64,000 nucleotides of DNA from a virus, in IMG/VR virus record IMGVR_UViG_3300035698_007208, positions 33,927 through 97,926 of that record; one strand, written 5' to 3'. The translations under genes and the position numbers were made by a program. The notes under the pieces were generated by a model. That model was given only the letters and a program-made list of their open reading frames with translations, searched no databases and had not been told where the DNA came from. Below, piece after piece: positions 14,491 to 56,170 of the stretch (the first letter of the stretch is position 1; every line of letters starts with the position of its first letter).

Positions 14491-15412
14491 CATGCCAGAC
14501 CAAGCTGCTGCAATTTTAGGAAGCAAAACACCCACACGAGGCGTAATGATGTTTGCGCACAACAACACGGAGATTGACTACTTTAAACTCGCAGTAGTTA
14601 ACGCGTTACTCGTAAAAAAACACATGGGTATTAATAACATTACTTTAGTAACTGATTCCTTTAGTTTAGCATACGCCGAACAAACATTAGGCAAAGACTT
14701 AATAAAAGCTGCAATTAATAATATTGTGGTTTCTGACAAGACGAGTGTATTTCAGTCAAAAAATATACGAACATATAAAGATACAGTGCATCATACTAAA
14801 AGTTTACCCTTCCATAATTTTAACAGATGTGATGCGTATGACATATCGCCATACGATGAAACAATTCTGATAGATGCAGATTATTTAATCCTAAGTGACA
14901 CGCTAAATCAATGCTGGGGCCATAATAATGAACTAATGATGAATTGGAAATGGCAAGACGTAATGCATGAACGAAAATACACAGGATTGGATCGCTTGCA
15001 TGATATAGGAATTACAATGTATTGGGCAACGGTTGTTTATTTTCGCAAAACAGCACACAATGAGTCATTCTTTAATTGTGTGCAGCATGTACGAAGCAAC
15101 ACTAAATTTTATAAAGAATTATACCAATGGGATGGTAAGTTATATCGTAACGATTACAGTTTTTCAATTGCAGCACATATGATGTCAGGATTTATAGACA
15201 AGGGAATCCCACAACTGCCAACAACCTTATATAAAACATTTGATACTGACGATGTTCATTCTGTTGACAATACTAACAGTCTTGTGTTATACTTAGAAAA
15301 GCCTAATAGTTCTGGAGATTTTATATTGGCACGATGGACCGGTATAGATTTGCATGTAATGAATAAATGGGCGTTTAATCGCATAAGTGACCAATTATTG
15401 GAAGAGTTATGA
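14480..15412 (+). CDS. GT-A fold glycosyltransferase-like protein (310 aa)
   Basis: The N-terminus (GVMMFAHNNTEIDYFKLAVVNALLVKKHMG) and the central YDETILIDADYLIL follow the GT-A nucleotide-diphospho-sugar transferase pattern, with an acidic DAD metal/sugar-nucleotide site. Asp/Glu/Trp-rich acceptor regions follow. A second member of the same type lies at 16611-17495 (PYDETVILDTDMIF). No membrane segment is seen, so it probably acts in the cytoplasm on a soluble or peripheral acceptor. The start could instead be the in-frame ATG at 14492. Donor and acceptor cannot be read from the sequence. It heads a cluster of small genes with ATGA overlaps, which implies one transcript. Confidence 0.7.
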   Translation: MAGNMPDQAAAILGSKTPTRGVMMFAHNNTEIDYFKLAVVNALLVKKHMGINNITLVTDSFSLAYAEQTLGKDLIKAAINNIVVSDKTSVFQSKNIRTYKDTVHHTKSLPFHNFNRCDAYDISPYDETILIDADYLILSDTLNQCWGHNNELMMNWKWQDVMHERKYTGLDRLHDIGITMYWATVVYFRKTAHNESFFNCVQHVRSNTKFYKELYQWDGKLYRNDYSFSIAAHMMSGFIDKGIPQLPTTLYKTFDTDDVHSVDNTNSLVLYLEKPNSSGDFILARWTGIDLHVMNKWAFNRISDQLLEEL

Positions 15413-16610: not shown

Positions 16611-17495
16611 ATGTCAAGAGGGTATATTTGCATAGCTCAAAATAATTCAACAACTGACTATCTTAGGCAGGCATACGCCCTTGCGTTGAATTTAAAGTTA
16701 ACACAAAGTGGTGTCAGTAACTTAACTGTATGTGTAGATGCTGATACTAAGAAGTTAATTAAGCCAAAACACAGAAAGGTATTTGATAAGGTTGTAGATA
16801 TTCCGTGGAACGATGATGCAAAGGACGCAGAGTGGAAAGTTAACAATAAATGGAAATTTTATCACATGACTCCGTATGACGAAACTGTCATACTAGACAC
16901 TGATATGATATTTCCGACAGATGTAAGCTATTGGTGGGATATTCTGTCAGAGCGCGATGTTTGGTCTACTACTAATGTAAAAACGTATAGAGGCGAGGAC
17001 GTTGGCGCTGATAGGCATTATAGGAAGTACTTTTTAGCAAATAATTTACCAAACGTATATACTGCATTCTTTTATTTTAAAAAATCAGAACTAGCAAGTG
17101 AATTATTTGCTATGATTGAAATCGTATTCCAGCATTGGCAACGCATGTACCACAAATACATGCCTAAAGGCAAACCTGATCGGCTAAGTGGTGATGTATC
17201 GTATGCGTTAGCTATGCAATTACTAGACATAACACATTTATGTACAAAACACAATGTCAAGCATGTTCCTACCTTTGCGCACATGAAGAGCAATGTACAA
17301 CACATACCGTCAAGTAAAATTAGTGATAAGTGGTCAGAAACATTACCTACATATTATAATACTTGTCGGGATTTTAAAATTGGTAACTTTTCACAAATTT
17401 ATCCGTTCCATTATGTGGAAAAAGATTGGATAACTCCTGAAATGATAGAACAAATGGAGAAGGAATATGATTTCACCAAAAGCACTAGCCCGTAA
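16611..17495 (+). CDS. GT-A fold glycosyltransferase-like protein (294 aa)
   Basis: The N-terminus is GYICIAQNNSTTDYLRQAYALALNLKLTQSG, and the acidic motif YDETVILDTDMIFPTD matches the DxD site of nucleotide-sugar transferases. It aligns in layout with the protein at 14480-15412, so the two are probable paralogues. No membrane segment is present. The 3' end overlaps the next gene by 29 bases. Donor and acceptor are unknown; proximity to the sugar cluster suggests a glycan-assembly role. Confidence 0.7.
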   Translation: MSRGYICIAQNNSTTDYLRQAYALALNLKLTQSGVSNLTVCVDADTKKLIKPKHRKVFDKVVDIPWNDDAKDAEWKVNNKWKFYHMTPYDETVILDTDMIFPTDVSYWWDILSERDVWSTTNVKTYRGEDVGADRHYRKYFLANNLPNVYTAFFYFKKSELASELFAMIEIVFQHWQRMYHKYMPKGKPDRLSGDVSYALAMQLLDITHLCTKHNVKHVPTFAHMKSNVQHIPSSKISDKWSETLPTYYNTCRDFKIGNFSQIYPFHYVEKDWITPEMIEQMEKEYDFTKSTSP

Positions 17496-18138: not shown

Positions 18139-19113
18139 ATGGCAGAAATAGACGTAACAGAATTAGACATATTTTATATAAGTTATGATGAACCAAACGC
18201 TGAAGAAAATTGGGCAGACCTGTTGAATAAGGTTCCTTGGGCAAAACGGGTGCATGGCATTAAAGGATTTGACGCAGCACATAAGGAATGCGCAAATCAA
18301 AGTGAAACAGATCGATTTATTACTGTAGATGGCGACAATAAGGTAATGGAAGACTTTTTTGAACAAGTGCTTGATGTTCCAGATACTGATCATGATGGTA
18401 ACTCGTTAGACGAAAGTATATTCTCATGGAATGCAAAAAACTTACTTAATGGATTAGTGTATGGTAACGGTGGAATTAAATGTTGGCCCACGAACTATGC
18501 TAAAAATATGAAAACTCATGAAGCAGCAGATGATGGCGAAGGCATGGAGTTTTGTTGGAAGCTTAACTATATTCAATTAAATGACACTTTTTCTGAAATA
18601 CACCAAACATCAACACCCTTTCAAGCATTTAGATCAGGATTTAGAGAAGGTGTAAAGATGAGTCTCGCACAAGGCCTACACGTTGAGCCAGCAGACTTTA
18701 AAAATAAAATTTGGTGGCAAAATTTTAATAGGTTACAGGTATGGTGTAATATTGGAAACGATATACAAAATGGAATATGGGCAATGTATGGTGCAAGACT
18801 TGGCTGTAAAATGACCGTACTAGATAAGTTTGATACTAACTTGATTAGCGATTATGAATGGTTTAATCAGTTTTTTGATAACTTAAGCAAGACAGTCAAA
18901 ACACATGACGGTAAGTGGCAATCAGATGAGCCTGATCTAACAACACAGCATTTAGGAGAACTTTTAAATGAAGAAATACCTGGTATGGTATTAACGCAAC
19001 CAAATAAAAAAGTAAGCGAATTTTTTAAGCTTACGTACACTAATCCGCCCCGCTGGGGAGTAATGATTCGTGAAAAACAAATACAGGCGCTATTGGAAGC
19101 ACAGGCAAAATAA
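18139..19113 (+). CDS. GT-A-like protein, single-unit relative of the ten-repeat protein at 34.6 kb
   Basis: A 324-residue protein. The first 120 residues read LDIFYISYDE...WAKRVHGIKGFDAAHKECA...DRFITVDGDN...FSWNAKN...VYGNGGIKCWP, followed by a C-terminal block with FQAFRSGFREGVKMSL. The same order of motifs (DILFIAYND, RMVNGVDGIFEAHQVAA, WVIDGDA, YGYGGIKLLP, AFRESVKLS) makes up the last unit of the 1,097-residue protein encoded at 34614-37907, so they form one family. The DGD triad and fold pattern suggest a nucleotide-sugar binding GT-A core. No donor or acceptor can be assigned. It is the last gene before a sigma-70-type promoter. Confidence 0.6.
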   Translation: MAEIDVTELDIFYISYDEPNAEENWADLLNKVPWAKRVHGIKGFDAAHKECANQSETDRFITVDGDNKVMEDFFEQVLDVPDTDHDGNSLDESIFSWNAKNLLNGLVYGNGGIKCWPTNYAKNMKTHEAADDGEGMEFCWKLNYIQLNDTFSEIHQTSTPFQAFRSGFREGVKMSLAQGLHVEPADFKNKIWWQNFNRLQVWCNIGNDIQNGIWAMYGARLGCKMTVLDKFDTNLISDYEWFNQFFDNLSKTVKTHDGKWQSDEPDLTTQHLGELLNEEIPGMVLTQPNKKVSEFFKLTYTNPPRWGVMIREKQIQALLEAQAK

Positions 19114-19181: not shown

Positions 19182-19367
19182 ATGGATCTTGAGTCAATGA
19201 CATTGCAGGAATTAGTACTTTATATGTCGAGACATCATAGAGGTATTTCTAATAACTGTTTTGAGGATGAAATCTACCCAATACTATTTTCCAAAGTAGG
19301 ACTGCCATCTTATCTCGATGACGATGACTATGATGATGACGATGACTATGATGATCCTACAAAATAA
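19182..19367 (+). CDS. Small acidic protein, Asp/Tyr-repeat tail (61 aa)
   Basis: First gene behind the 19129 promoter, with an AGGAGC ribosome site. The last 17 residues are a run of DDDYDDDDDYDD. The repetitive GATGAC coding makes another open frame on the same strand, which should not be read as the start of the next gene. Its strong acidity might suggest DNA mimicry, but the protein is too short to claim that. Confidence 0.6.
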   Translation: MDLESMTLQELVLYMSRHHRGISNNCFEDEIYPILFSKVGLPSYLDDDDYDDDDDYDDPTK

Positions 19368-20383: not shown

Positions 20384-21736
20384 ATGGCCTCGAGCGGAAA
20401 TAAATCTAAGGTAGGTTTTATCGGTGTAGGTAAGCTAGGACAAGCTTGCGCCGAGATGGTAGCTGAGATTCATGATGTAGTCGGATACGATATTAATACA
20501 CGAACCCCTGAAAACTTCAAAATGGTTAACACTATGATTGAAGCTGTCCAAGGTAGAGATATTGTTTTTATTGCAGTGGAAACACCGCACGATCCGCTAT
20601 ATGATGGTAAGGCACCAACCAGTCATTTGCCCAACAAAGACTTTAATTATGACACGGTTAAGCAAGTACTACGTGAAGTAAATGAAGTAGCAACAAAAAA
20701 TCAACTAATCGTATTAATCAGTACTGTGCTTCCAGGTACCACTCGTAGAGAATTAGAACCATTGATTCCAAACGCACGTTTTATTTACAATCCATATTTA
20801 ATTGCAATGGGTACTGTTAAATGGGATATGGTCAATCCAGAGATGATCATGATCGGTACTGAAGATGGCAGCGAAACTGGAGATGCTAAACAGCTTGTAG
20901 ATTTTTATAAAACTATAATGGAAAATGAACCGCCGTATCATGTTGGTACATGGGACGAATGCGAGTGTCTTAAAGTATTTTATAACACGTTTATTAGTGC
21001 AAAAGTATCATTAGTTAATATGATACAAGATGTAGCAGAAAAGCAAGGCAATATTAATGCTGAGTGGGTTTGTGATGCCTTAGCAAAATCAGATCGTCGA
21101 ATTATGGGTCCTGCATACATGAAGCCCGGAATGGGTGATGGCGGTCATTGCCATCCTAGAGATAACATTGCGTTACGGTGGATGGCTGATAAATTAGATT
21201 TAGGATATGACTTGTTCGATGCAGTGATGCTTAGTCGAGAAGTGCAGGCCAAAAATATGGCATCAAAGCTAATGGACTTAGCACAAGAGAGTGACATAAG
21301 AGATATTGTTATTGTTGGAAAGGCATACAAGCCGCACGTGGCATATGATGGTGGGTCTAGCAGCATGTTGGTTGGATCTTTCATACAACAGGAACCAAAA
21401 GAAACTGATGCCAAAACGCACCAACCGGTTTTTAACTTACATTACTTGGATGAATTAACAGGTGATGTTGTTCCTGAGAATTTAGGGAGAGCAGTATATC
21501 TTTTAGCGCACTGTCCTGAAATTACTTATGGTGAGCAGTTAAATCATGTTGATCAATGGTATGCTAATCATTCTGTATCGTCAGTAGATGAAGCATTAAC
21601 TGTTGCTACTGCAAATGGTACAATGTTAGACATGGCAGATGGTAGCATTGTTGTTGATCCTTGGCGCAAAACACCAAAATTACCTAATGTGCGAGTTGTG
21701 CATTACGGCAATACACGAAAAGATTCTCCGAGGTAA
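20384..21736 (+). CDS. UDP-glucose/UDP-sugar 6-dehydrogenase family
   Basis: A 450-residue NAD-dependent nucleotide-sugar dehydrogenase that oxidises the C6 hydroxyl of a UDP- or GDP-sugar to the acid. Visible features are the Rossmann motif GVGKLG (residues 14-19), a STVLPGTTRREL segment, the central helix CECLKVFYNTFISAKVSLVN with its conserved Lys and Asn, and the catalytic cysteine in GDGGHCHPRD (Cys256). Length matches the family. It opens the sugar block and probably supplies a uronate-type donor or intermediate. Whether the substrate is UDP-Glc, UDP-ManNAc or another is not decidable here. The 5' leader carries an inverted repeat that may control translation. Confidence 0.85.
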   Translation: MASSGNKSKVGFIGVGKLGQACAEMVAEIHDVVGYDINTRTPENFKMVNTMIEAVQGRDIVFIAVETPHDPLYDGKAPTSHLPNKDFNYDTVKQVLREVNEVATKNQLIVLISTVLPGTTRRELEPLIPNARFIYNPYLIAMGTVKWDMVNPEMIMIGTEDGSETGDAKQLVDFYKTIMENEPPYHVGTWDECECLKVFYNTFISAKVSLVNMIQDVAEKQGNINAEWVCDALAKSDRRIMGPAYMKPGMGDGGHCHPRDNIALRWMADKLDLGYDLFDAVMLSREVQAKNMASKLMDLAQESDIRDIVIVGKAYKPHVAYDGGSSSMLVGSFIQQEPKETDAKTHQPVFNLHYLDELTGDVVPENLGRAVYLLAHCPEITYGEQLNHVDQWYANHSVSSVDEALTVATANGTMLDMADGSIVVDPWRKTPKLPNVRVVHYGNTRKDSPR

Positions 21737-21739
21737 AAT

Positions 21740-23200
21740 ATGAATGAATTAGAACGATACAAAGTAATCTCATCAACGCTAAATGATGTTAGTCCGACAT
21801 TTTGCTTGGCTAAATGGTTGCAGGTAACGTTACACTTACAAAATGGTCGGACACATAGCTGCCACCATCCGTCAACGCATCACATTCCATTGGAGGAAAT
21901 TGCGCTTGATCCGTCTGCGTTACACAATACAACATTTAAAAAGTCTATACAAGCAGAAATGATTGATGGCAAACGCCCGTCAGAATGCCAATACTGTTGG
22001 AATGTAGAGGACTTGCCTGGAGATCATTTATCTGATCGAACGATGAAATCAGCTGACACAGCCTGGGCCGGCCCACAGCGGATAGCAAGCGTGTTAGATG
22101 CGGTTAAAAATAATAAGCCTATTAACCCAACTTATGTTGAAGTGTCATTCTCAAACGTATGTAACTTTAAATGTTCTTATTGTTCTCCCGTACATTCGTC
22201 TAAGTGGGTTAGCGAAATCCAATCTCACGGTGCATATGACTTAGATGGGCACATGTATAACGGGTTGGAATGGTTCAAAGAATCTAAATCAATGCCAATT
22301 CATCATACTGAACATAATCCTTATGTAGAAGCATTTTGGAACTGGTGGCCAGATCTTTCTAAAGATTTAAAAGTTTTTCGTGTTACTGGCGGTGAGCCTT
22401 TGTTGGACAAAAATACATTTAAAGTAATGGACTTTATGTATGAAAACCCATGCCCTGATATGGAATTTAGTATCAATACGAATCTGTGCATTCCTAAAAA
22501 ATTAATTGATTCATATATAGAAAAAATGTTAAAATTAACAAGTGAAAAGAAAATACGCAGGCATGTATTATATACTAGTATTGATGGACACGGCAAACAA
22601 GCAGAGTACGGCCGCAACGGATTAGATTATGTAACCTGGATACATACACTTGATCGTGTTTTAACAGAATTGCCTGACGTAAAGGCAACAATTATGTGTA
22701 CAACTAATATATTTTCAATGACATCAATGGAAAGGTTACTTAAGGATGTTTATAATTTAAAATTAAAACACCGTTCAGCTGACCGCGATGTCCCGCTCAC
22801 AATAGATATGAGTATTCTTAGGTGGCCAGTTCATCAGTGCGCAGCAATACTTCCTGGCACTTATGCTGACATGTTGCTACCTGCATTAGCATTTATGGAG
22901 GAACATATGCTAGGCAATATTGAAGACGAACCGTGGCCGGGCTTTTTTGCACCGTATCAAATGTTTCATGTATACGAAGTAGAAAAAATGAGGCGCTTTA
23001 TTGAATATGTAAGACAGCCGCCCAATGAAAATGAAGGCGTATCTGTCGAGACCTCAATGAAACAATTTTATTTATTTGTTAATGAACACGATGCTAGACG
23101 AGGAACAAATTTCTTAGAAACCTTTCCGGAATTGTCTGATTTTTATTACGATTGCAAAAAACTACACCAAAACAACATATCTCTAACAGAAATAACATGA
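21740..23200 (+). CDS. Radical SAM protein (twitch-type, phage family)
   Basis: A 486-residue protein with the radical SAM cluster motif C-x3-C-x2-C (Cys141, Cys145, Cys148 in VCNFKCSYC), the TGGEPLL loop near residue 220 and additional cysteines in the N-terminal region (CQYCW). The N-terminus before the core is long. Proteins of this layout recur in T4-like marine phages, usually labelled 'twitch domain radical SAM' with no assigned reaction. It sits between a UDP-sugar dehydrogenase and glycosyltransferase-like genes, so a sugar or peptide modification is plausible but unproven. The downstream gene starts on its stop codon (ATGA). Confidence 0.8.
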   Translation: MNELERYKVISSTLNDVSPTFCLAKWLQVTLHLQNGRTHSCHHPSTHHIPLEEIALDPSALHNTTFKKSIQAEMIDGKRPSECQYCWNVEDLPGDHLSDRTMKSADTAWAGPQRIASVLDAVKNNKPINPTYVEVSFSNVCNFKCSYCSPVHSSKWVSEIQSHGAYDLDGHMYNGLEWFKESKSMPIHHTEHNPYVEAFWNWWPDLSKDLKVFRVTGGEPLLDKNTFKVMDFMYENPCPDMEFSINTNLCIPKKLIDSYIEKMLKLTSEKKIRRHVLYTSIDGHGKQAEYGRNGLDYVTWIHTLDRVLTELPDVKATIMCTTNIFSMTSMERLLKDVYNLKLKHRSADRDVPLTIDMSILRWPVHQCAAILPGTYADMLLPALAFMEEHMLGNIEDEPWPGFFAPYQMFHVYEVEKMRRFIEYVRQPPNENEGVSVETSMKQFYLFVNEHDARRGTNFLETFPELSDFYYDCKKLHQNNISLTEIT

Positions 23201-28782: not shown

Positions 28783-29663
28783 GAATTGCACTATGCTTTA
28801 GTGGAATGATCAGAGAGGCATCACCAGCCGCCGCAAATATCAAACAATGGATTGGCAATGTGATGCCGTCAATAGATTTTTTTATGCATACGTGGGACGT
28901 TAGCCAGGATAAGCCGTGGCACCCGGGACACACAGGAATTCATAGTAGCTCGGGACCATCGCGGGCAATATTGCTTAACAGCAATTATAATCTACATCCG
29001 CCAGTAGACAGTAGTGATTTAATTAAAGGAATGCTACAACAATATAAACCATTTAAAAAAATCCGTGTTGATAACCTTGAAAGTGCATGTAAAAGACATA
29101 TTATTGCTGCCCAGCCATTATGGTACTCTTGGGCGCAAAGTAATAAACTAAAAGAAGAGTACGAAAAAGAACACAGATTTGTGTATGACATTGTATTAAA
29201 GGTACGCACTGACATGGTTAGTCCTTTGGGAATAACCCTTGCATCAGATATTGCATATTATGAAAAAGACCCGGCAAAATTTTATGTGTGGGGTTCATCC
29301 GGCGGTAAGCATATGTCTAATTCTAAGAATTCCAATATTGCTATTGGCTTTGCTGAGTTAGATAAGCTCCGCGAGTGCAGACTGCATGGTACAGATTTCA
29401 TGATAGAATTTGATAAATACCTTTATAATCGGCACATTAGAACAAAAGTACCGTTGGACGGTACCGAAACTGTGTATCGTTCAGTATGTTCGTCAAGCAG
29501 CCTAGACTTTATTGCGTGTTTGGTGGTTGAACACTTTTTTTACCATTCAGCAGCGACATTTGACCGCATGTGCAGGGACAACCTCGAGTTTAAAAACAAG
29601 TATTTTTTATTAAAAGACGACCTAGAACAAGCAGCAATGCGTAACACAGGAATGCATGCGTGA
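28779..29663 (+). CDS. Glycosyltransferase-like family, copy 4 (294 aa)
   Basis: RIALCFSGMIREASPAAANI, FFMHTWDVSQDKPW and YDIVLKVRTDMVSP follow the family plan of the copies at 23197, 24882 and 25712, though the Arg-Thr after the SGQ-type turn is altered to SGMIRE. It is joined to the cupin by ATGA and to the nucleotidyltransferase-kinase fusion by GTGA. The function of the family remains unassigned. Confidence 0.65.
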   Translation: MRIALCFSGMIREASPAAANIKQWIGNVMPSIDFFMHTWDVSQDKPWHPGHTGIHSSSGPSRAILLNSNYNLHPPVDSSDLIKGMLQQYKPFKKIRVDNLESACKRHIIAAQPLWYSWAQSNKLKEEYEKEHRFVYDIVLKVRTDMVSPLGITLASDIAYYEKDPAKFYVWGSSGGKHMSNSKNSNIAIGFAELDKLRECRLHGTDFMIEFDKYLYNRHIRTKVPLDGTETVYRSVCSSSSLDFIACLVVEHFFYHSAATFDRMCRDNLEFKNKYFLLKDDLEQAAMRNTGMHA

Positions 29664-31192
29664 AAAACACTGTCATAATACCAACAGTGGGCTCCGGAAG
29701 CCGAATGGGCAGTATTGGATTATGCCTGAACAAAGCGTTAATTCCTTATAAAAACAAACCTATTATATCTCATATTATTGCAGGTTTTCCTAAAGATACT
29801 AAGTTTATTATTCCTGTTGGTTATCTAGCTGAACAAGTAATTAGTTACTTTGATGTAGCTCACATTGACCTCGATGTAGAATTTGTTCGTGTTGACGATT
29901 GGACATCATTGGCAAGCGGTACTATGAAAACACTGTTAATGTGCGAGCCATATGTGCATGGTCCATTTTGGTATGTATCGTGTGATACGTATTTTGATGA
30001 AGACATAATAAAGCAGCGTGAAGAGCGAAATTGTTTTTACATAGAAAGTTGCACCTCTAGTACTCCTGAAGACTACACTATGTTTTCTTTAGATATTAAT
30101 AAACAAATTGCTGATGTCAAATTTAAACTTAACGTGAGTACCGATTATCGAGCGTTCACTGGATTAATGTATATACATGATTATAGTAAATTATTTGAAT
30201 CAATGCGTAATTCATCTGCAACTGAATTTATATCAATTATACCAATTGGATCAAAAACTACAGAATTGGCTAGCTGGGTCGATTTAGGAACTGAAGTAAA
30301 ATATAGCAATGCCCTGCCAACCGAGCTTTATGACTTTACAAAGCCGGAAGAAATTACTTACGTAGGTGACACCACAGTAATAAAATGGTGGAAGGATGAT
30401 GCTATTGCTGAATTAAAATATAAAAAAGCAGTTTCTAACCCTGCTGTATTTCCTAATAATGTTAGATATTCAGGCAGCTTTTTGGCATACGATTTTAGTA
30501 AAGGAACAACGCTCTATGAAGCAAACTCGCATGATTACTTTCCTGAATTGTTAAATTGGTTAAATGAAAACTTTTGGAGTAATAACAATCACGATATTAC
30601 TAATTCGTGTTTAGAGTTTTATAAAACTAAAAGCCTAAAAAGAATTGACTTATTTCTGTTGAAATATCCGGATATATTCCAACCTAAAACTATTAATGGT
30701 ATTGCTGTAAAAAGTTACGATGATTACTTAGCTAATATCGATTGGGACTACTTGGCTAACAACTTTGTTTCTACTGCTATACATGGCGACTTGCAGTTTG
30801 ATAATATAATTGTAGATGATAATGGCAATTTTACGCTTATTGATTGGCGACATAATTTTGCTGACTTAAATGAAACCGGGGACTTATATTACGACTTAGC
30901 TAAACTTTTGGGTGGATTAATAATACAATATTCGGAAATTAAGAAAAACAACTTCTCAGTTAGCATAGACGAAAAGCACGATGCTGTGTCGCTAAACATA
31001 CCGACGATTGAAAATATTGAAATATTTAATAGCCAACTAGCAGTGTTTGCAGATGCTAATAATTTAGACTTACGAAAAATAAAATTATTAGTTCCTATAA
31101 TTTTTTGGAACATGTCTCCATTGCATACTGCACCGTTTGATACATTTTTGTGGTACCTTGGAATCATGTTATTTGCTAGTTTAGAAGAATAA
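29660..31192 (+). CDS. Nucleotidyltransferase fused to APH/choline-kinase-like kinase (510 aa)
   Basis: Starts at GTG 29660, overlapping the previous TGA. Residues 1-240 are a sugar-phosphate or LicC-like nucleotidyltransferase: VIIPTVGSGSRMGS (Gly11, Gly13, Arg15), LNKALIPY (Lys25) and the CDTYFDED metal site. Residues about 250-510 are an aminoglycoside/choline-kinase-type phosphotransferase with the catalytic loop HGDLQFDNI (375-383) and LIDWRH carrying the metal-binding Asp. One polypeptide could phosphorylate a small alcohol or sugar and then activate it as an NDP derivative, as LicA plus LicC do for choline. The real substrate is unknown. Confidence 0.8.
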   Translation: MKNTVIIPTVGSGSRMGSIGLCLNKALIPYKNKPIISHIIAGFPKDTKFIIPVGYLAEQVISYFDVAHIDLDVEFVRVDDWTSLASGTMKTLLMCEPYVHGPFWYVSCDTYFDEDIIKQREERNCFYIESCTSSTPEDYTMFSLDINKQIADVKFKLNVSTDYRAFTGLMYIHDYSKLFESMRNSSATEFISIIPIGSKTTELASWVDLGTEVKYSNALPTELYDFTKPEEITYVGDTTVIKWWKDDAIAELKYKKAVSNPAVFPNNVRYSGSFLAYDFSKGTTLYEANSHDYFPELLNWLNENFWSNNNHDITNSCLEFYKTKSLKRIDLFLLKYPDIFQPKTINGIAVKSYDDYLANIDWDYLANNFVSTAIHGDLQFDNIIVDDNGNFTLIDWRHNFADLNETGDLYYDLAKLLGGLIIQYSEIKKNNFSVSIDEKHDAVSLNIPTIENIEIFNSQLAVFADANNLDLRKIKLLVPIIFWNMSPLHTAPFDTFLWYLGIMLFASLEE

Positions 31193-33036: not shown

Positions 33037-34614
33037 ATGATTAGAACAATTTTAGGTGTCAGTTTTGGCTTCCACGATGCTGCTGTCTCTGTGGTTAACT
33101 ATGACACTGGTGAAATACTATTCGCATCACAAGCAGAAAGATATAGTAAAATAAAGAATGATCCGTGGTTACATGACGATCTAATTGCCAAAGCATTAAC
33201 TTACGGTAATCCAATTGTTATTGCGGTTAACGAAAACCCCTACCTCAAAAAACTAAGTCAGCTACGGTCTGGGCAGTTTCGAGAGGCATTACTTGGACCC
33301 ATGCCAAGCAAATGGCTTAATTTTTATCCCGAACTTAACGGAGTGCCGATTCAATATTACGGACATCATGAAAGTCATGCTGCTGCCGGATTATACGCAA
33401 TGGGATTAAATACGTTTGTTAAGACTGCTGGTAGAATGCGCTTTGGTATAGGGAGCGTATACGGTCCTGCTCCAATAGCAATAATGGTAATTGATGCGAT
33501 CGGTGAATTAGACACTGCGTCTATATGGAGTACAGACCATAACTTTAAACTTATTAAAGAAAGCTCAATCAAGTACCCAAACAGTTTGGGATTGTTTTAC
33601 ACTGCAATGACTCAGTATTTGGGGCTTAAGCCAATGGAAGACGAGTATATACTAATGGGCATGGCTGCTTATGGCAATAAAGAACGAGCATTTGCGCTGG
33701 CACAGCATTTAGGTAAAACATACTTTGTAGACGACAACAACAATCCTATGAAGGCTCGTGTAAATTTACATCGAGGATTACCTTATGACAGTGTGTTAGA
33801 AGAAGCAGATCAATTTGACATTGCACTAGCTACTCAAATTGAATTTGAAAGTCGCATGATGCGCTATGCTAAAGAAGCAAGCAACGTAAGCAATAACTTA
33901 ATTTATATGGGTGGGTGTGCATTGAATTGTGTTGCTAATACGCGACTGTCTGAACTATTTGATTCTGTGCAAATTATGCCTAATCCAGGAGATGCTGGTA
34001 GCTCATTGGGAGCCGCTGCATTGTCATACTTTAAACGAACTAATAAATTTTTGTCTGGATGGTCTCCTTATTTGGGACATGGCATTGTTGGAAAATATCC
34101 TGTTGATAAAGTGATCACTGCACTGTGTGAAAGTGGCATATGCGGAGTAGCAAATGGCAAGGCAGAATTTGGTCCTCGTGCATTAGGCAACCGCAGTTTG
34201 CTTGCTGACCCTAGAGATCCAACTATTAAAGATAGAGTAAATAAGATTAAGAAGCGGCAAGAATTTAGACCATTTGCTCCTATGATATTAGACAGTCACT
34301 TATCCCATGAGTTTGAAGTACCTTTGACTGCTAACCCAAACGAATTTTTATATATGCAACAAGCAGTAAAATGCAGAAACCCAGAGAAGTATCCGGCCAT
34401 AGTCCACGCAGACGGAACAAGTCGTGTACAAGTGGTTACCAAAGAGGCCCATCCTGAACTACATAAATTACTTTCAGAATGGAATAGAATAACTGGGTGT
34501 CCTATGTTGCTTAATACTAGCTTAAACATTAAAGGACAACCAATAGTAAATGATGAACAAGATGCTTATGATTTTGCAGAAAAGTACCAAGTTTCAGTGG
34601 TTACGTGTAAATAA
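33037..34614 (+). CDS. NodU/CmcH-family O-carbamoyltransferase
   Basis: A 525-residue enzyme of the carbamoyltransferase family, which uses carbamoyl phosphate and ATP to put a carbamoyl group on a hydroxyl of a sugar or antibiotic. Visible are VSFGFHDAAVSVV (9-20), the metal-site YYGHHESHAAAGLY (107-120), the sugar-kinase-like YMGGCALNCVANTRL and the C-terminal domain with FGPRALGNRSLLADPRD and KRQEFRPFAP. All hallmark residues are present and the length is normal, so the enzyme should be active. It has its own late promoter box and probably decorates the product of the preceding pathway. Confidence 0.9.
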   Translation: MIRTILGVSFGFHDAAVSVVNYDTGEILFASQAERYSKIKNDPWLHDDLIAKALTYGNPIVIAVNENPYLKKLSQLRSGQFREALLGPMPSKWLNFYPELNGVPIQYYGHHESHAAAGLYAMGLNTFVKTAGRMRFGIGSVYGPAPIAIMVIDAIGELDTASIWSTDHNFKLIKESSIKYPNSLGLFYTAMTQYLGLKPMEDEYILMGMAAYGNKERAFALAQHLGKTYFVDDNNNPMKARVNLHRGLPYDSVLEEADQFDIALATQIEFESRMMRYAKEASNVSNNLIYMGGCALNCVANTRLSELFDSVQIMPNPGDAGSSLGAAALSYFKRTNKFLSGWSPYLGHGIVGKYPVDKVITALCESGICGVANGKAEFGPRALGNRSLLADPRDPTIKDRVNKIKKRQEFRPFAPMILDSHLSHEFEVPLTANPNEFLYMQQAVKCRNPEKYPAIVHADGTSRVQVVTKEAHPELHKLLSEWNRITGCPMLLNTSLNIKGQPIVNDEQDAYDFAEKYQVSVVTCK

Positions 34615-37600
34615 TGTTTGATATATATTACGTGGGAACCAATAACGCAATGCAAGATGCTATGCCATCAGCAATTTGCATTTCTAATAAAACAGAAATT
34701 AAGGCTAATACAAAAATGTATTGGTTTATTGATGCTGATATAGAAATACTTGATTATTCAGTATTTGACTACACGCCACCAAATTACGACAAGAATTATG
34801 AGCATGTTTGGAAACAAAACAGCCAAACATATGGAGGTGTTCGACTTTTCCCTAAGACTAAAGTTATCGGTGTAAAGGAAGTTAATAAGGTAGTATGTAA
34901 GCAAACATTTGGTATACTTTATGAGCAAAACCCAGGCAATTATTTTCAAAATAATTTACATGCATCTCATGTATGGTGTGTTGATCCAGACTATAAGATA
35001 AACGACAATATCAATTGGGCCCCAAGCGAGTTTGAGCCTAATTATATACACAGTTTCCACTTGCGTAGTCAGCTCGAATACAAGTATCCGGACGATGAAG
35101 GAGGCATAAAGCTTTTTCCACGATCATGGAAAACATCCTCTACTAAATTTCATGGGTTTATCGACGCAAGTGTACATTATCCTATCGTGTTCTCTCGGAA
35201 TGTTACTGATTATGCCCAATGCGAATGGGGCCAACATGATTACGTGTGGTTAATTGATGCAGATTACAAAATTGATAATAAGACTGTTGACTGGGCTCCT
35301 AATCCATTTGAGGACCAAATGATTCATTCATTTAAAATGCCACACCAATTACAAGAAAAATATCCTCAAGCGATGGGTGGAATCAGATTAGTGCCACGTA
35401 GATGGGACATAGCAGAAACAAAAATACACATATCGTGTCCAATAGACGACGAAAATTATGATGTATTTTATGTAGATGACGATGAGTTTACAGCAGAAGC
35501 ATATACTGGCTATGCAAGTCGAAGTAAAACAGAATGGTTTTGGATTGTAGATCGTGACTTTCAATTTAACGGTAAGCTACTATATGTTCCTTCCTTTCAT
35601 GAAAGAGAGTACATACATGTATTTAAGGTTCCCGGCCACTTAGACGCTCGCTATCCTGCAACCATTACTGACGCGTGGGATAACAGGTGTGGTGGTATTC
35701 GGTTAATGCATAAGAACTTTGATATGACCAAACATAAGTATCAAGAACATGTAATTCCAGTTAAATATGATATTTTTTATACTAGCGACCCGACTGCTAA
35801 TTTAAGCAAGTGCGCTAAGAAAAGTAGATCAAAAATGTGTTGGGTGATTGACGACAAATACGCCATTAACAATGTTCTTAATTATGTGCCTACTCGCGAC
35901 GAGCAGCATTACTTGCTTAATTTTAAAATAATAGATCAATTGCAACACATATATCCTGAACAAGAAGGAGGTGTATGGCTTGTACCAAAAAATTATAATG
36001 AAAACACATCTATAAAATATAAAGACAAATTAAATATCAGCAGTAAACAGTATCCAATCTTATTTGTAGACGACGTAGATGATTACTCTGATGTAACTGA
36101 AGAATGTTGGTTAATAGATAAAGAATATCAAATTAACGATGCTATTGATTGGGTACCTAGTAATTTTGAAAGAGATTTTATTCATTCATTTCATATCCCA
36201 AATCAATTAATACACAAGTATCCATTTAAAATGGGCGGAGTTCGTTGGGTACCTAAAAACTGGGAATCTGCAGAAATAAAAATACATGATGATTCCCTGT
36301 TCTCATCACCAGTGTTTGAGGTTTACAATAATGAAGCTATTGGACGGCTTGCTACTACAAAAGATTGGTTTTGGGTAGTAAGTGATAGTGTTACATGCTT
36401 AGAGACATTTAATTTTAACTTTGTACCAAACGTATGGGATGATGGCAAAACGCACATATGGCAAAAGTTGAATCCAATTACGAATCGCCAATATGATTAT
36501 TCAGGTGTAAGTTTATGCCCTAAAGTGCAATCAAACACGGGCCGACCAAAATATATGCGACAGCCTGCTTGTACACAAAATGAATACCCAATATATTACC
36601 TAGTACCATCTGATTACGATAACCCGTTACAGCAAGCCTACGAGCGTCTGAGCAACAGAACAGAGGAAGACATGTACTGGGTAGTAGACGTGCTTACGCA
36701 AATCAGTCCAGAATTTGATTTTGGCTATTACCCTACTAATTGGGACATTAATAACATTCATATTTTTAGTGACGATATGGGAGAAAGAAAAGGTGTTAGG
36801 CTTGTACCTAAATCTTTATTCTTAAAACACAAATATACTGATGTAGAGATTTTAAATAATAGTTTTAATAAGTTAAAATATATCAACAATGTTGCGAGCA
36901 CTAAACCAGTATGGCCAGTGATTAACTTGGCACGAGTAGAAAAGGATGATTTTGTAAACACAATGAAGGCCGCAGTAACACCCTTTGTTTGGACCATTGA
37001 TTCTGATATTAAAGTTAATCAGGCCATACTGGAAAAAGGCTATATACCAGAAATTGCAGACTTAAAAAAAGTACATTGTTGGCAAAAACTTAACCCAAAT
37101 ACAGGTAAAGTTCATTCTTATGGTGGATTAAGATTATGGCCAACATCGGAAGATTACAGTAGTATTACAGCCTCATCAATTGAGCTAAATAAATTAAAAA
37201 ATTTAAAGTATATCAAGGACAACGGCAGCTCAATAAAGCCACTAGATATACTTTTTATTGCATACAATGACACAGCAGCTTACCGCAAGCATGCAGCATT
37301 AAGAGAACGTTTTGGCAATGTACGAATGGTTAATGGTGTAGATGGTATATTTGAGGCACACCAGGTTGCAGCTCGTATGGCAAATTCAGACATGTTTTGG
37401 GTAATAGACGGCGATGCTATTATTGAAGATGATTTTAATTTTAATTACTTGCCTGACGTGTATGATAAAGACGTAGTGCATGTATGGTCAAGTAAGAACC
37501 CAGTTAATAATTTAGTATACGGTTACGGGGGAATTAAACTATTACCAACACACATGGTCAGGGATGCAACAAGTTGGGGATTAGATTTTACAACTGGACT

Positions 37601-37907
37601 CAGTAATCGGATTAAAGTAATGCCCGAAATAAGTTGCACTACTGCATTTAATACTACAGCGTTTGATACTTGGAGATCAGCATTTAGGGAAAGTGTTAAA
37701 TTGTCAATATCGCAAGACCCAGATGCACCATCACGTCTAGCTGCTTGGCTAACCCCAATCTTAGATGCTGATTTTTCTTCCTTTGCAAAATTGGGTGCAG
37801 AACATGGAAAAGCGTTCGGAATTCAACACATAAATAATACAGAACAGTTAAATAATATTAATAACTACAGTTGGCTAGAGAAAAGGTTCGCAGAATGTCA
37901 AATATAA
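34614..37907 (+). CDS. Ten-repeat protein built of a GT-A-like module (1,097 aa)
   Basis: The protein is ten diverged copies, each 80-110 residues, of one module: a Y-D/P-I-x-F/Y strand, W-x-I/V-D-x-D followed by Y-x-I-N, then W-x-P, HSFH/HVW, QL-x-x-K/R-Y-P and a closing GG-I/V-R/K-L-x-P. The acidic triad is intact in units 1-4, 9 and 10 (DAD, DPD, DAD, DRD, DSD, DGD) and degenerate in units 5-8. Unit 10 has a 140-residue C-terminal extension (AFRESVKLS) shared with the separate gene at 18139-19113. The triad and fold pattern point to nucleotide-sugar binding, but the repeats look more like a scaffold or lectin array with one or a few active units. TAATG coupling to the carbamoyltransferase places it in the glycan pathway. 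Confidence 0.75.
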   Translation: MFDIYYVGTNNAMQDAMPSAICISNKTEIKANTKMYWFIDADIEILDYSVFDYTPPNYDKNYEHVWKQNSQTYGGVRLFPKTKVIGVKEVNKVVCKQTFGILYEQNPGNYFQNNLHASHVWCVDPDYKINDNINWAPSEFEPNYIHSFHLRSQLEYKYPDDEGGIKLFPRSWKTSSTKFHGFIDASVHYPIVFSRNVTDYAQCEWGQHDYVWLIDADYKIDNKTVDWAPNPFEDQMIHSFKMPHQLQEKYPQAMGGIRLVPRRWDIAETKIHISCPIDDENYDVFYVDDDEFTAEAYTGYASRSKTEWFWIVDRDFQFNGKLLYVPSFHEREYIHVFKVPGHLDARYPATITDAWDNRCGGIRLMHKNFDMTKHKYQEHVIPVKYDIFYTSDPTANLSKCAKKSRSKMCWVIDDKYAINNVLNYVPTRDEQHYLLNFKIIDQLQHIYPEQEGGVWLVPKNYNENTSIKYKDKLNISSKQYPILFVDDVDDYSDVTEECWLIDKEYQINDAIDWVPSNFERDFIHSFHIPNQLIHKYPFKMGGVRWVPKNWESAEIKIHDDSLFSSPVFEVYNNEAIGRLATTKDWFWVVSDSVTCLETFNFNFVPNVWDDGKTHIWQKLNPITNRQYDYSGVSLCPKVQSNTGRPKYMRQPACTQNEYPIYYLVPSDYDNPLQQAYERLSNRTEEDMYWVVDVLTQISPEFDFGYYPTNWDINNIHIFSDDMGERKGVRLVPKSLFLKHKYTDVEILNNSFNKLKYINNVASTKPVWPVINLARVEKDDFVNTMKAAVTPFVWTIDSDIKVNQAILEKGYIPEIADLKKVHCWQKLNPNTGKVHSYGGLRLWPTSEDYSSITASSIELNKLKNLKYIKDNGSSIKPLDILFIAYNDTAAYRKHAALRERFGNVRMVNGVDGIFEAHQVAARMANSDMFWVIDGDAIIEDDFNFNYLPDVYDKDVVHVWSSKNPVNNLVYGYGGIKLLPTHMVRDATSWGLDFTTGLSNRIKVMPEISCTTAFNTTAFDTWRSAFRESVKLSISQDPDAPSRLAAWLTPILDADFSSFAKLGAEHGKAFGIQHINNTEQLNNINNYSWLEKRFAECQI

Positions 37908-38087: not shown

Positions 38088-38798
38088 ATGTTTGGTGTGT
38101 ATGGAATGGATAATAGCATAATGCAAGGACCAACTCTTCTTAATTTAAACGACTGGGATTTAGTTAGCAAATACAACGACAATGGTACGTTAACATACTC
38201 TCCTAGTTTCTTAGAAAGAGCAGTACAGGGAAATTATCCTAAGGATGCGTTTTCCAAAGGACAAATAGCTAGTAAAAAATGGCTAATAGAAGAATTACAA
38301 AATTTAGATAATCACAGTTTCGAGAATATTGCCATTTTGGGCTGTTGGATCGGGGCATCAGTTGATTCCTTAGTTGAGGTACTAGACACACAGAGAATAT
38401 ACGGATTTGATTCCGACCCTGTTGCTATAGCCTTTGCAGAAAAACTGAATCAACACCATGTTCAAAACTCTTGGAAGTTTAAGGGAGTAGTTGAAGATGT
38501 AAATATGCTAGATACCAGTACCATGCAAATCCAAATAGGAGGTGAGCTCATAGAGGTGCAGCCCGATATGGTAATTAATACTAGTTGCGAGCACATGGGG
38601 GACGATTGGTTCCACAGTGCAGCACCTACACAGTTAATAGTTATGCAAACTAATAACTTTAAGGAATGGCACGAACACATTAATTGTGTATCAAGTGTTA
38701 AAGAAATGCAGGAGCAATACCCACTAAGTAATACACTTTATGCTGGTGAGCTCATTACCCCATCTTATAACCGCTACATGCAAATTGGAACAAAATGA
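38088..38798 (+). CDS. Class I SAM-dependent methyltransferase-like protein (236 aa)
   Basis: A Rossmann-type motif I (NIAILGCWIGASVDSLVEVL) and motif II acidic end (RIYGFDSDPVAIAFA), with a later MVINTSCEHM, fit a class I methyltransferase fold. The motif I glycine pattern is reduced (GCWIGAS), so activity is not certain. Substrate unknown. The start could be ATG 38106. ATGA coupling with the next gene. Confidence 0.6.
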   Translation: MFGVYGMDNSIMQGPTLLNLNDWDLVSKYNDNGTLTYSPSFLERAVQGNYPKDAFSKGQIASKKWLIEELQNLDNHSFENIAILGCWIGASVDSLVEVLDTQRIYGFDSDPVAIAFAEKLNQHHVQNSWKFKGVVEDVNMLDTSTMQIQIGGELIEVQPDMVINTSCEHMGDDWFHSAAPTQLIVMQTNNFKEWHEHINCVSSVKEMQEQYPLSNTLYAGELITPSYNRYMQIGTK

Positions 38799-52946: not shown

Positions 52947-54470
52947 TTAACCAACGGCTGATCTTAATTGCACATGGGCTTGAATTAATGCTGCTTCTCG
53001 CGCCGCACCGTCTTCAGTACGTCCCCGGACTTCAGCAAGCGTAGTTTCATTAAACAATCTTCCATTGTGATAAAGAAGTTCCATGGCGTCCTCGAACCCT
53101 TCTGGAATTGGACCTTGGTCCAATCGACCAGTAACCAGTTCACCTGTTTCTAAGTTGCGCAGTAACGTCATTACGCCTTCTTTGGACTTTTTGCCACTAT
53201 CAGTAATTGGGTCTTTAGCAATACCAATCCATTCACCATCCATCAATATACAAGATGCCTTCTGTGCAAACTTTAGCGTGTCTCGATTAACTTTTTGTAA
53301 CAATGCACCACCTGATCCAAATATTACAACATCTGCACTGTAATTTAACACACCTGTAACTTTACCAAGCAACGATTCTAATGAGCGTGAGTCAATACCG
53401 TCACCTTGGATAACACCAACGTAGTTAATAGACTTAAAGCCCTTAGCAGTCATTGTGAATCCAAACGCCTCTTCTTGCATTTTAAGAAGCCTAGGAACAA
53501 CAACCATCATGTCACCCGAGTCTGGACGAAATACTACCTTGCATCCTGATGCAATAATTTGGTCTTTAAATTCTGTACATAGCAATTCGGCTTCTCGGTA
53601 CACATCATAACCGTCAATGACAATACTAATAATTGTATTAGGCAGTGCGTTGGATAATACCTTAGTTAAGTATGCTCTTGCACCTTCAATGTCTCCACCA
53701 AATGAGCACTCAATGGAGTGTTCAGTTGCAAATACACTAAATGCTGCCATTGGTTCTTTATAGTAAAAATTCGATGTTAATGTTCCTTCAATGTTGTCGG
53801 AACCCATGAAGTTTACTGTGTGCGATGCTCCACCAATCTCAGCTTGTTCTGCACACGAAACACCTCGGCCACCAAAATCATGCAATGCGAAGGGAAGCAA
53901 GTCCATATTGGCACCTGTTCTTTCGTAAAATCCTTTAATTATTTTCTTTACTTCATACCCCTGTGTCGCAATAGTAGTTGGATACCAAACGCCACGCTGG
54001 ATAATAGTCTCAAAGCCAGCAGACATCCAGGCTAAGTCTTCATCAATAACGGTAATGTTGTATATAGGCTGGCTTCCATTCATTACTGTGCCTTCTGGAA
54101 CAGCGCGAATCATTAGTGGCATCGCACCACCATATACCTCAACTACCTTTACCCACGCTTTTCTATCAAATAGTTTCCGACCAAAGTGTGCAATAGCAAA
54201 TTCTTCAGCAGCATCAATATCTGCATGTGTAATTCTCATTGTGCCGTAACGTTTTAGAAATAATTGCATACCAAATGGCACAATTGTTTCTCTTGAGTCT
54301 ATGCGCGATTCACCGTATGATGACATACCGCCAATTCCATCCTTATATGCAAACGGGTGGCTAAATTTATAGCTATCCATTCTGCAAATTAGTGATATGG
54401 CCAACTGATCGTCTTGCACGTATTCATTGTCTGTGTCTTTTGGTTCAAACGCCTTCATTATATCTGTCAT
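52947..54470 (-). CDS. nadV: Nicotinamide phosphoribosyltransferase (NadV/NAMPT)
   Basis: A 507-residue enzyme making NMN from nicotinamide and PRPP. Hallmarks of the NAPRTase/NAMPT family are DSYKFSHPFAY near the N-terminus, GYEVKKIIKGFYERTG, LHDFGGRGVSCAEQAEIGGASH, VIDGYDVY, VVFRPDSGD for the phosphate-binding region and GVIQGDGID. Length fits NAMPT (about 490). With the NadM-Nudix gene at 55049-56170 it forms the two-step nicotinamide-to-NAD route known in phages as NARP2, which restores NAD depleted by immune NADases. Early promoter at 55004-55031 upstream of the intervening gene. Confidence 0.93.
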   Translation of the reverse strand: MTDIMKAFEPKDTDNEYVQDDQLAISLICRMDSYKFSHPFAYKDGIGGMSSYGESRIDSRETIVPFGMQLFLKRYGTMRITHADIDAAEEFAIAHFGRKLFDRKAWVKVVEVYGGAMPLMIRAVPEGTVMNGSQPIYNITVIDEDLAWMSAGFETIIQRGVWYPTTIATQGYEVKKIIKGFYERTGANMDLLPFALHDFGGRGVSCAEQAEIGGASHTVNFMGSDNIEGTLTSNFYYKEPMAAFSVFATEHSIECSFGGDIEGARAYLTKVLSNALPNTIISIVIDGYDVYREAELLCTEFKDQIIASGCKVVFRPDSGDMMVVVPRLLKMQEEAFGFTMTAKGFKSINYVGVIQGDGIDSRSLESLLGKVTGVLNYSADVVIFGSGGALLQKVNRDTLKFAQKASCILMDGEWIGIAKDPITDSGKKSKEGVMTLLRNLETGELVTGRLDQGPIPEGFEDAMELLYHNGRLFNETTLAEVRGRTEDGAAREAALIQAHVQLRSAVG

Positions 54471-54517
54471 CTTAAAACTCCTTTAAGTTAATGCCTTAGG
54501 TATATCCTTAGGACTTG

Positions 54518-54937
54518 TTAAACATCTAATGCTATTTTTTCTTCTTCAGTTAATTTTGCAAGACCAGACTTCTTTAATATGTTTCTTTCTCTAGTCTGGA
54601 CTTCATTTTTTTCACGCAATAAGTCTGCTACTTGATGTTTTTGCCACCAATCAGCAAGCTTTCTTGCTTCTGGATTTCGACCATCGTAAATAAGTTTATT
54701 TCCTTCATCAGTGCCTTCTAACTGCTTGAGCCAACTACACAAATGATCAGTCATTTTGTCTAATTCTTTAACCATACCATAAGTGTCATTTATCGCTACT
54801 TGTATAGCTTGTGTATTGTATCGTTCATGAGGCCGATTAGTTGTGCCCGAGCATTGCAAATAATTTATATGTTTTGCTACACGTATACTTTCTTTTTCTT
54901 TGGCAGTTGGTTCCATGTAATCATTTCTGCATCCCAT
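54518..54937 (-). CDS. Phage protein of unknown function between nadV and nadM (139 aa)
   Basis: An all-helical, charged protein (MEPTAKEKESIRVAKHINYL, LCSWLKQLEGTDEGNKLIYDGRNPEARKLADWWQKHQ) with GGAGAAAGC before ATG 54937. It is familiar from marine phages without function. Its place between the two NAD genes makes it a candidate accessory factor of that pathway. First gene behind the inverted-repeat promoter. Confidence 0.65.
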   Translation of the reverse strand: MGCRNDYMEPTAKEKESIRVAKHINYLQCSGTTNRPHERYNTQAIQVAINDTYGMVKELDKMTDHLCSWLKQLEGTDEGNKLIYDGRNPEARKLADWWQKHQVADLLREKNEVQTRERNILKKSGLAKLTEEEKIALDV

Positions 54938-55003
54938 TATGCTTTCTCCAATAAATCAATGTTAATTGTTGTGTTCACGTTATTACTAATTTTTAATGCA
55001 TTT

Positions 55004-55041
55004 ATTATAACACTTGATGTAACATAGTCAAGTGTTATAAT
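55004..55041. promoter_or_regulatory. Promoter embedded in a perfect 14-bp inverted repeat
   Basis: ATTATAACACTTGA (55004-55017) and TCAAGTGTTATAAT (55028-55041) are perfect 14-bp complements with a 10-base spacer. The minus-strand promoter TTGACT (55026-55031), 16 bases, TATAAT (55004-55009) lies within it, so -35 and -10 each fall in one arm. A dimeric repressor site or an mRNA hairpin ending the NadM transcript are both possible; the T-run is absent. Confidence 0.85.
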
Positions 55042-55048
55042 ATCAATA

Positions 55049-56170
55049 TTAGTCCTGTCCGTTCTCACCGGTAAAGTATGATAAGATTTCAAAGTGATCC
55101 TCAAAGCAGTCTTCTGAGTTAACATCAGCAATAGGTATCCATTGTGCTTTTTCTGCATCATCACTTCCTTTTACTTTAGGCAACTCTGTACCGTTAGGTA
55201 GTTCGATGTAAAAAGCATGTGTAATAGTGCGCCCTCTAGCAGAACGATCAATTGCATCAAATACTTTATCTTTTGTAATATTGCCTACTAGTACTGGTGT
55301 TGGTACTTTAAGTTTAGTTTCTTCTCTAAGTTCTCTAATAGCTGCATCTTGTACGGATCGATCAGTGCTTGCATTTACAAAGCCACCTGGAAAAGCCCAT
55401 AATCCTTTACCTGGGTAAGCCCGCCGCTTAATAAGCAATACATGTGCATTTTGCGTAACAACTGCATCAGCGGTAGAGAATATAACGTCATATGGTAAGC
55501 TTGCGTAAGGCTTCTTATAATTGCTAGTAAATTCTTTTTCAGCCATAACTGTCTCAAACCCTTCTGAATTTCTCCATTCGGCCAAGTATTTAATGATTGC
55601 TGGCGGCACAACCCCTGTAAGGAAGTTAAGATTTGCATTCCTTTGGAAATACAAAGCCCTAATATCTGTCGCGTCTAATACTTCCATTAATTGGTGATCA
55701 AGTCTATCCCACTGTGGAAACATATCTAAGTAAAAAGTAGAAGGGTCTTGGCTTTTTTTATGCCCTACTACCACAACCTTAGCTGTACTACTTTGCTTAT
55801 TTAATACTTCGTTTACAATATTATGAGTTCGAATTAACCAAGCACCGTCTGTGTAACGGGTGTCTACATTGCTTCTAAAAACAATACAGTCCATGTTAAC
55901 ACCGCGCTCTTGTAATGCAAGAGTAATCATTTCTTCTCGTTCAACTACATTCCAGGGATTTTTGTATACCCGGGGCTGGTATGCAGATCCAAATATGATA
56001 AGAACTTTTTTTGCAACTTTAAGTGCATCAATTACGGTTTGAATGTGTGCATTATGCCCGCACTGAAATCTTCCAATAAAAACGGCTAAATCATGGGTTA
56101 GTACATAACCTGGATCGTGATCAGACCAGCTTGAAGTTTTGGTTACACTTGGTATTGTTATATTACTCAT
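55049..56170 (-). CDS. nadM: Bifunctional NMN adenylyltransferase/Nudix hydrolase (NadM-Nudix)
   Basis: A 373-residue protein. Residues about 26-200 are a NadM-type adenylyltransferase with FIGRFQCGHNAHIQ (33-44, the HxGH-like ATP site) and the ISSTxxR-like region replaced by LDATDIRALYF. Residues about 225-373 are a Nudix domain with GGFVNASTDRSVQDAAIRELREET (REL-x-EE helix complete; the first Glu of the consensus box falls on Arg271). It makes NAD from NMN and ATP; the Nudix half may hydrolyse ADP-ribose. With NadV it gives a full NARP2 route. ATGA overlap with the upstream gene. Confidence 0.9.
   Translation of the reverse strand: MSNITIPSVTKTSSWSDHDPGYVLTHDLAVFIGRFQCGHNAHIQTVIDALKVAKKVLIIFGSAYQPRVYKNPWNVVEREEMITLALQERGVNMDCIVFRSNVDTRYTDGAWLIRTHNIVNEVLNKQSSTAKVVVVGHKKSQDPSTFYLDMFPQWDRLDHQLMEVLDATDIRALYFQRNANLNFLTGVVPPAIIKYLAEWRNSEGFETVMAEKEFTSNYKKPYASLPYDVIFSTADAVVTQNAHVLLIKRRAYPGKGLWAFPGGFVNASTDRSVQDAAIRELREETKLKVPTPVLVGNITKDKVFDAIDRSARGRTITHAFYIELPNGTELPKVKGSDDAEKAQWIPIADVNSEDCFEDHFEILSYFTGENGQD

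Follow-up and report, generated by a model that had tools for sequence, protein, structure and literature searches.

A phage protein of ten repeated units with a putative single GT-A glycosyltransferase site at its C-terminal end

Results

A 1,097-aa protein of a T4-like phage was found to consist of ten diverged copies of one unit, followed by a C-terminal block. The reading we favour, with slightly better than even confidence, is a phage glycosyltransferase with one catalytic site in unit 10 and the C-terminal block, and with units 1–9 as a non-catalytic stalk. The analysis covered 64,000 nucleotides of IMG/VR record IMGVR_UViG_3300035698_007208 (hereafter the window).

Ten units in the array protein

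The ORF is open from the ATG at 34614 to the stop codon ending at 37907. The features of the array protein and of its paralogue are as follows.

34614–37907, plus strand: array protein, ten units and C-terminal block, 1,097 aa
34620–34868, plus strand: unit 1, D-A-D here, E-P-N usual in relatives
34884–35138, plus strand: unit 2, D-P-D
35154–35414, plus strand: unit 3, D-A-D here, relatives mostly without D-x-D
35442–35729, plus strand: unit 4, D-R-D, the unit most similar to its counterparts in most relatives
35745–36005, plus strand: unit 5, D-D-K
36021–36272, plus strand: unit 6, D-K-E, about 0–4 counterpart copies in relatives
36291–36539, plus strand: unit 7, S-D-S here, D-P-D usual in relatives
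36576–36824, plus strand: unit 8, D-V-L
36882–37160, plus strand: unit 9, D-S-D
37239–37565, plus strand: unit 10, terminal, full GT-A-like N-terminal half, D932-G-D934 at 37407–37415
37566–37904, plus strand: C-terminal block, mostly helical, near-invariant FRExxK, RLxxW and GAxxG, common to the gene at 18139
18139–19113, plus strand: single-unit paralogue, 324 aa, type of gene that directly adjoins the 1–4-unit gene in small relatives

In a leave-one-out test, each unit scored 41–71 bits (E 1e-14 to 1e-24) against the profile of the other nine. Shuffled controls (1,000 shuffles of each unit) reached at most 11 bits. The ten repeats are real and far beyond chance, as an earlier note on this DNA had described from the letters and the translated ORFs. 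That note had also placed an intact acidic motif in units 1–4, 9 and 10 and a lost one in units 5–8, and the sites agree when read unit by unit (DAD, DPD, DAD, DRD, DDK, DKE, SDS, DVL, DSD and DGD from unit 1 to unit 10). As unit 1 usually has E-P-N and unit 7 usually has D-P-D in relatives, this pattern of intact and lost motifs is specific to the protein studied here.

The spacing from GG to the next WxxD was 46–65 residues for units 1–9 and 92 residues before unit 10. Residues 874–1092 of the array protein aligned to the product of the 18139 gene with 29% identity (E 1e-21). By this alignment, unit 10 and the C-terminal block are homologous to the 18139 gene, which bears out the shared C-terminal block noted earlier.

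Unit 10 as a GT-A-like domain

Residues 863–1097 were modelled together with 65 relatives (pLDDT 93.1, pTM 0.87). The model showed strands at 16–21, 41–45 and 65–70 and helices at 27–38 and 50–60 (model numbering), with a pLDDT above 90. Unit 10 is thereby predicted to have a Rossmann-type N-terminal half with three strands up to and including the D-x-D strand, and it carries the D-x-D itself (D932-G-D934).

The best structural matches in the PDB were HddC, ArnC, WrtF, RmlT, TarS, PcManGT and GalNAc-T enzymes. Nearly all top matches were GT-A transferases or nucleotide-sugar enzymes, at E 1e-4 to 1e-3 and with a TM of only 0.3–0.5. The modest TM probably reflects the C-terminal helical block, which has no counterpart in the matched structures. 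Pfam Glycos_transf_2 was matched weakly by 14 of the 65 relatives (best E 1.6e-4). A relationship of unit 10 to the GT-A fold is supported.

Other GT-A elements were looked for in the alignment of relatives. YGYGG was invariant in the terminal units of large arrays and is a candidate G-loop by motif, not by superposition on a known G-loop. No E-D was recognised as an xED motif in the terminal units, and the invariant Glu of FRExxK is a candidate for the base. There was no invariant His after the D-x-D that would correspond to the C-His. Some GT-A families are without the xED Asp, and the C-His was lost independently in several GT-A clades (PMC7185993).

By sequence, the array gave no relevant PDB match, either as a single sequence or as a profile. 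Carbamoyltransferase structures matched by the array profile (E 0.1–0.8) look like chance hits and were rejected. No Pfam or NCBIfam family scored above its curated cut-off for the array protein, and PHROGs matches had E 0.25 or worse.

Units 1–9 as degenerate repeats

The full-length model had a pLDDT of 85.8 and a pTM of 0.45; the individual units were folded confidently, and their mutual arrangement was of low confidence. According to DSSP on this model, unit 10 has two helices and one strand between its first strand and the D-x-D strand. Units 1–9 have one short helix or none there, and no second strand before the D-x-D strand. Hence, they do not possess the complete N-terminal nucleotide-binding half of a GT-A domain. 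Nor is their D-x-D conserved: family-wide, 92 of 447 non-terminal units have it, and D-x-E/N was found in 139.

What units 1–9 keep is a core of about 65 residues, from the DxD strand to the GG strand. In a search of bacterial ORFs, a profile of units 1–9 alone matched homologues that have a single unit, the best at E 5e-18 and two of three Photorhabdus proteins at E 1e-3. Profile-profile alignment covered about 65 residues. We conclude that units 1–9 derive from the middle portion of the enzyme.

The description of all ten units as GT-A modules, each folding as a GT-A half, is therefore an overstatement. It holds for unit 10, on structure, Pfam and bacterial context. It fails for units 1–9, which are homologous over only about 65 residues and have no second strand before the D-x-D strand in the predicted structure. 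Ten active modules were rejected in view of the family-wide D-x-D and unit-length data. Of the functions that had been offered for the array, an inactive scaffold fits units 1–9 best. A processive or multi-site transferase is unlikely, because non-terminal units have not kept the D-x-D. A glycan-binding array may still be considered for the repeats.

Motif retention across the family

Of the 83 complete ORFs with several units, 77 retain the D-x-D in their last unit. In single-unit proteins, it was present in 210 of 211, the remaining one being gapped there in the alignment. The six last-unit exceptions (L141, L142, L145, L146, L147 and L149) all have V-F-A-K. These are 3–4-unit arrays in which FRE is kept. 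The clade warns that an array may persist without the D-x-D.

In the terminal units of large arrays, G-I-F-x-A-H (G-x-x-x-A-H), YGYGG and the K after GG are all fixed. In the non-terminal units of the same arrays, W, P, H and GG are kept, and G-I-F-x-A-H, YGYGG and K are lost or drifting. Across the family, non-terminal units had a median of 54 residues from GG to the next WxxD; the median of terminal units was 91.

Family size, copy number and selection

An IMG/VR scan with the array alone gave no matches. The family was opened by a scan with the 18139 paralogue (174 confirmed stretches). An alignment of seven arrays found 68 loci, and the terminal domain found at least 597 confirmed stretches. 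Among the 50,697 phage isolate records of INPHARED, tblastn with the array found no match at E 1e-3; matches of the terminal region and of the product of the 18139 gene (up to E 10) were all at chance level.

Units were counted in the complete ORFs of all fetched loci. There were 202 ORFs with 1 unit, 17 with 2, 8 with 3, 14 with 4, 6 with 5, 2 with 6, 1 with 7, 10 with 9, 11 with 10, 4 with 11, 7 with 12 and 3 with 13, and these counts are not independent because contigs overlap and some are near duplicates. The array is thus not a one-off, since relatives with 1–13 units exist.

The units of other arrays map in order onto units 1–5 and 7–10 of the protein studied here. Counterparts of unit 6 are absent in 9-unit arrays, occur once in 10-unit arrays and number two to four in most 11–13-unit arrays. 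Hence, copy number varies mainly at unit 6. Other arrays doubled unit 8, units 8 and 9, or unit 1.

For informative close pairs (NG86), dN/dS was mostly 0.02–0.3 for every unit, with dS often near saturation and a few short low-dS estimates reaching 0.5. The estimates indicate strong purifying selection on all units, so that the degenerate units, too, are maintained.

In four small relatives (L119, L124, L133 and L138), the 1–4-unit gene directly adjoins a gene of the 18139 type, and at the loci L155 and L156, one ORF holds two complete copies. This suggests tandem duplication as the origin of the arrays.

Genomic context

The source is an uncultured, probably marine, T4-like phage. The record (98 kb, probably incomplete) encodes a gp23-type head protein, a portal protein, a late sigma factor, and baseplate wedge and hub proteins. 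The gene family lies downstream of the tail-fibre genes. The following neighbours of the array were annotated.

20384–21736, plus strand: nucleotide-sugar (UDP-glucose-type) dehydrogenase, start of the sugar island
21740–23200, plus strand: Twitch-domain radical SAM protein (NCBIfam NF033640)
29660–31192, plus strand: sugar-1-phosphate nucleotidylyltransferase-like domain fused to an APH-like phosphotransferase domain
33037–34614, plus strand: NodU/TobZ-type carbamoyltransferase, one-base overlap with the array start
38088–38798, plus strand: methyltransferase-like gene, weak Pfam matches

Mannose-6-phosphate-isomerase-like and other sugar genes are also present in the window. With a neighbour defined as the closest ORF on the same strand that encodes 150 aa or more, a carbamoyltransferase was the upstream neighbour in 30 of 31 large-array loci, and a methyltransferase-like gene was directly downstream in 27 of 28 readable ones. 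One to five radical SAM homologues were found near most large arrays, and none in the stretches read at five loci.

Next to the bacterial single-unit homologues, GT1-, GT2- and GT28-type genes were found in Ruegeria, Photorhabdus and a WOR-3 bacterium. In a Paraburkholderia MAG, the homologue is fused to a UDPGT/GT28-type domain (a GT-B enzyme).

Discussion

Proposed function and alternatives

In the favoured reading, the enzyme would be unit 10 together with the C-terminal helical block. D932-x-D934 in the GT-A-like half of unit 10 would bind the metal and the nucleotide sugar, with the rest of the active site supplied by the helical block. Units 1–9 would be duplicates of the central part of the enzyme that then lost the nucleotide-binding elements. 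As a stalk, they may bind or position the acceptor or partner proteins, as proposed for the LH3 accessory domain. The array, the adjacent carbamoyltransferase and the methyltransferase-like protein would build or decorate a glycan made from the sugar island, either on the phage tail or virion or on the surface of the infected cell. The sequences themselves show that the units are homologous, that units 1–9 have lost the D-x-D and the N-terminal elements while the last unit keeps them, that every unit is under purifying selection and that the neighbours are conserved; catalysis, use of a metal, the donor, the acceptor and the task of the stalk are inferred.

This reading draws on the D-x-D retention in the last unit, the further motifs fixed in terminal units, the GT-A-matching model (pLDDT 93), the bacterial transferase clusters, the low dN/dS of every unit, the conserved neighbours, the sugar and tail-fibre context and the precedent of LH3. 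Against it stand the modest TM, the missing PDB match by sequence, the search for an xED Asp and a C-His that recognised neither, the V-F-A-K clade and the pTM of 0.45 of the full-length model. As an extension, the number of units may determine how far along a repetitive acceptor, either a long tail fibre or a growing glycan, the catalytic head extends. Phages would then tune this reach through duplications of unit 6 or of units 8 and 9. We hold this extension to be rather doubtful.

Several of these observations would also fit a non-enzymatic sugar-binding or structural virion protein with a terminal D-x-D used for binding or folding, such as a tail-associated array that contacts host or phage glycans. 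In this T4-like phage, the family follows the tail-fibre genes, most units are conserved without a D-x-D, and one clade keeps the array though the D-x-D is lost in all units. However, near-absolute retention of the D-x-D and of the motifs preceding it is confined to the last unit, bacterial relatives lie beside transferases or are fused to them, and the sugar-modifying neighbours are conserved. We therefore regard a virion protein as unlikely. Activity of several units, in a multi-site or processive transferase, would agree with the D-x-D in five of the nine non-terminal units of this protein and with the PDB search of the full model, which ranked chondroitin polymerase (two GT-A domains) first with a very low TM. 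Yet the D-x-D is not kept in the corresponding units of relatives, and units 1–9 have neither the strand nor the helix preceding the D-x-D strand, which makes such an enzyme very improbable.

The neighbouring genes raise two further explanations. One is a DNA-hypermodifying transferase whose partner would be the carbamoyltransferase and whose substrates would be hydroxymethylated bases. In its favour, 5-hydroxymethylcytosine is the target of a phage carbamoyltransferase (PMC8670742), and genes of the 7-deazaguanine type are present in this genome. We consider it quite improbable, as no thymidylate-synthase family member was found in the 98-kb, probably incomplete record by a search whose control works, and the cassette sits among sugar-nucleotide and tail genes. 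Moreover, carbamoyltransferases of unmodified contigs are reported to be flanked by unrelated genes, e.g. group 1 glycosyltransferases (PMC8670742). The other takes the array as a substrate: the radical SAM enzyme, the carbamoyltransferase or the methyltransferase encoded nearby would act on its repeats. One to five radical SAM genes near most large arrays and the strictly kept carbamoyltransferase and methyltransferase-like neighbours would suit it, but the five large-array loci without a radical SAM homologue in the stretch read would not, and the enzyme-like terminal unit would be left unexplained. We give this explanation hardly any credence.

Comparison with known systems

No characterised protein of such architecture was found in the collections searched, in agreement with what the earlier note had supposed. 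In BFVD, the terminal domain matched two uncharacterised viral entries, A0A6J5L5L5 (1,076 aa) and A0A6J5LK21 (804 aa), with a TM of 0.88–0.90 and 25–27% identity. Both are proteins of uncultured Caudovirales phages with no function recorded, and from their lengths they may be arrays. The literature was also searched for phage arrays of degenerate glycosyltransferases, with no relevant result.

Unit 10 shares the fold of the N-terminal half and the D-x-D with GT2-type GT-A enzymes such as WrtF, ArnC, TarS and PcManGT. Unlike the array, these enzymes have a single catalytic domain and no repeat stalk; the C-terminal helical block of the array differs from theirs, and no xED Asp or C-His is recognised in the array protein. 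In human LH3 (PLOD3), an active GT-A-like domain is joined to a probably inactive GT-A-like accessory domain, for which substrate recognition or partner binding was proposed (PMC6082870). LH3 was among the matches of the full-length model at a TM of about 0.1. However, it is a eukaryotic collagen enzyme with a hydroxylase domain, and it has one accessory domain, whereas the array has nine truncated ones. The chondroitin polymerase of E. coli K4, the best PDB match of the full model, resembles the array in having tandem GT-A domains in one chain, but its two domains are complete and both bind donors.

The context resembles the host recognition cluster of pelagimyophages and cyanomyophages as described in PMC7029224: there, too, a T4-like phage has an island after its tail-fibre genes that encodes transferases, a UDP-glucose dehydrogenase and radical SAM proteins. 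Host O-chain modification was proposed there for the pelagimyophage islands. Text searches of that paper turned up no array protein.

If the favoured reading is right, a transferase fold was turned into a tandem repeat in which a single intact copy remains the enzyme and selection has preserved as many as twelve truncated ones for another purpose. Uncultured phages commonly carry the terminal family, which clears no curated family model and marks a conserved carbamoyl-/methyltransferase cassette. The series from 1 to 13 units is a ready-made set for probing the effect of repeat number.

Other observations in the window

Two genes upstream of the paralogue (14480–15412 and 16611–17495) both belong to PHROG 1903 and have GT-like D-x-D stretches; PHROG 1903 genes share a conserved block with the 18139 gene in small relatives. 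On the minus strand, a nicotinamide phosphoribosyltransferase near a cytidyltransferase/Nudix protein forms an NAD-salvage pair (52947–56170). A QueE-like radical SAM protein (58027–58917) and a GTP cyclohydrolase (60002–60682) suggest 7-deazaguanine synthesis, possibly for DNA modification. At 19318–19365, the start of an ORF is Met/Thr-rich and of low complexity (MTMTMMMTMTMM), and the start may be wrongly assigned.
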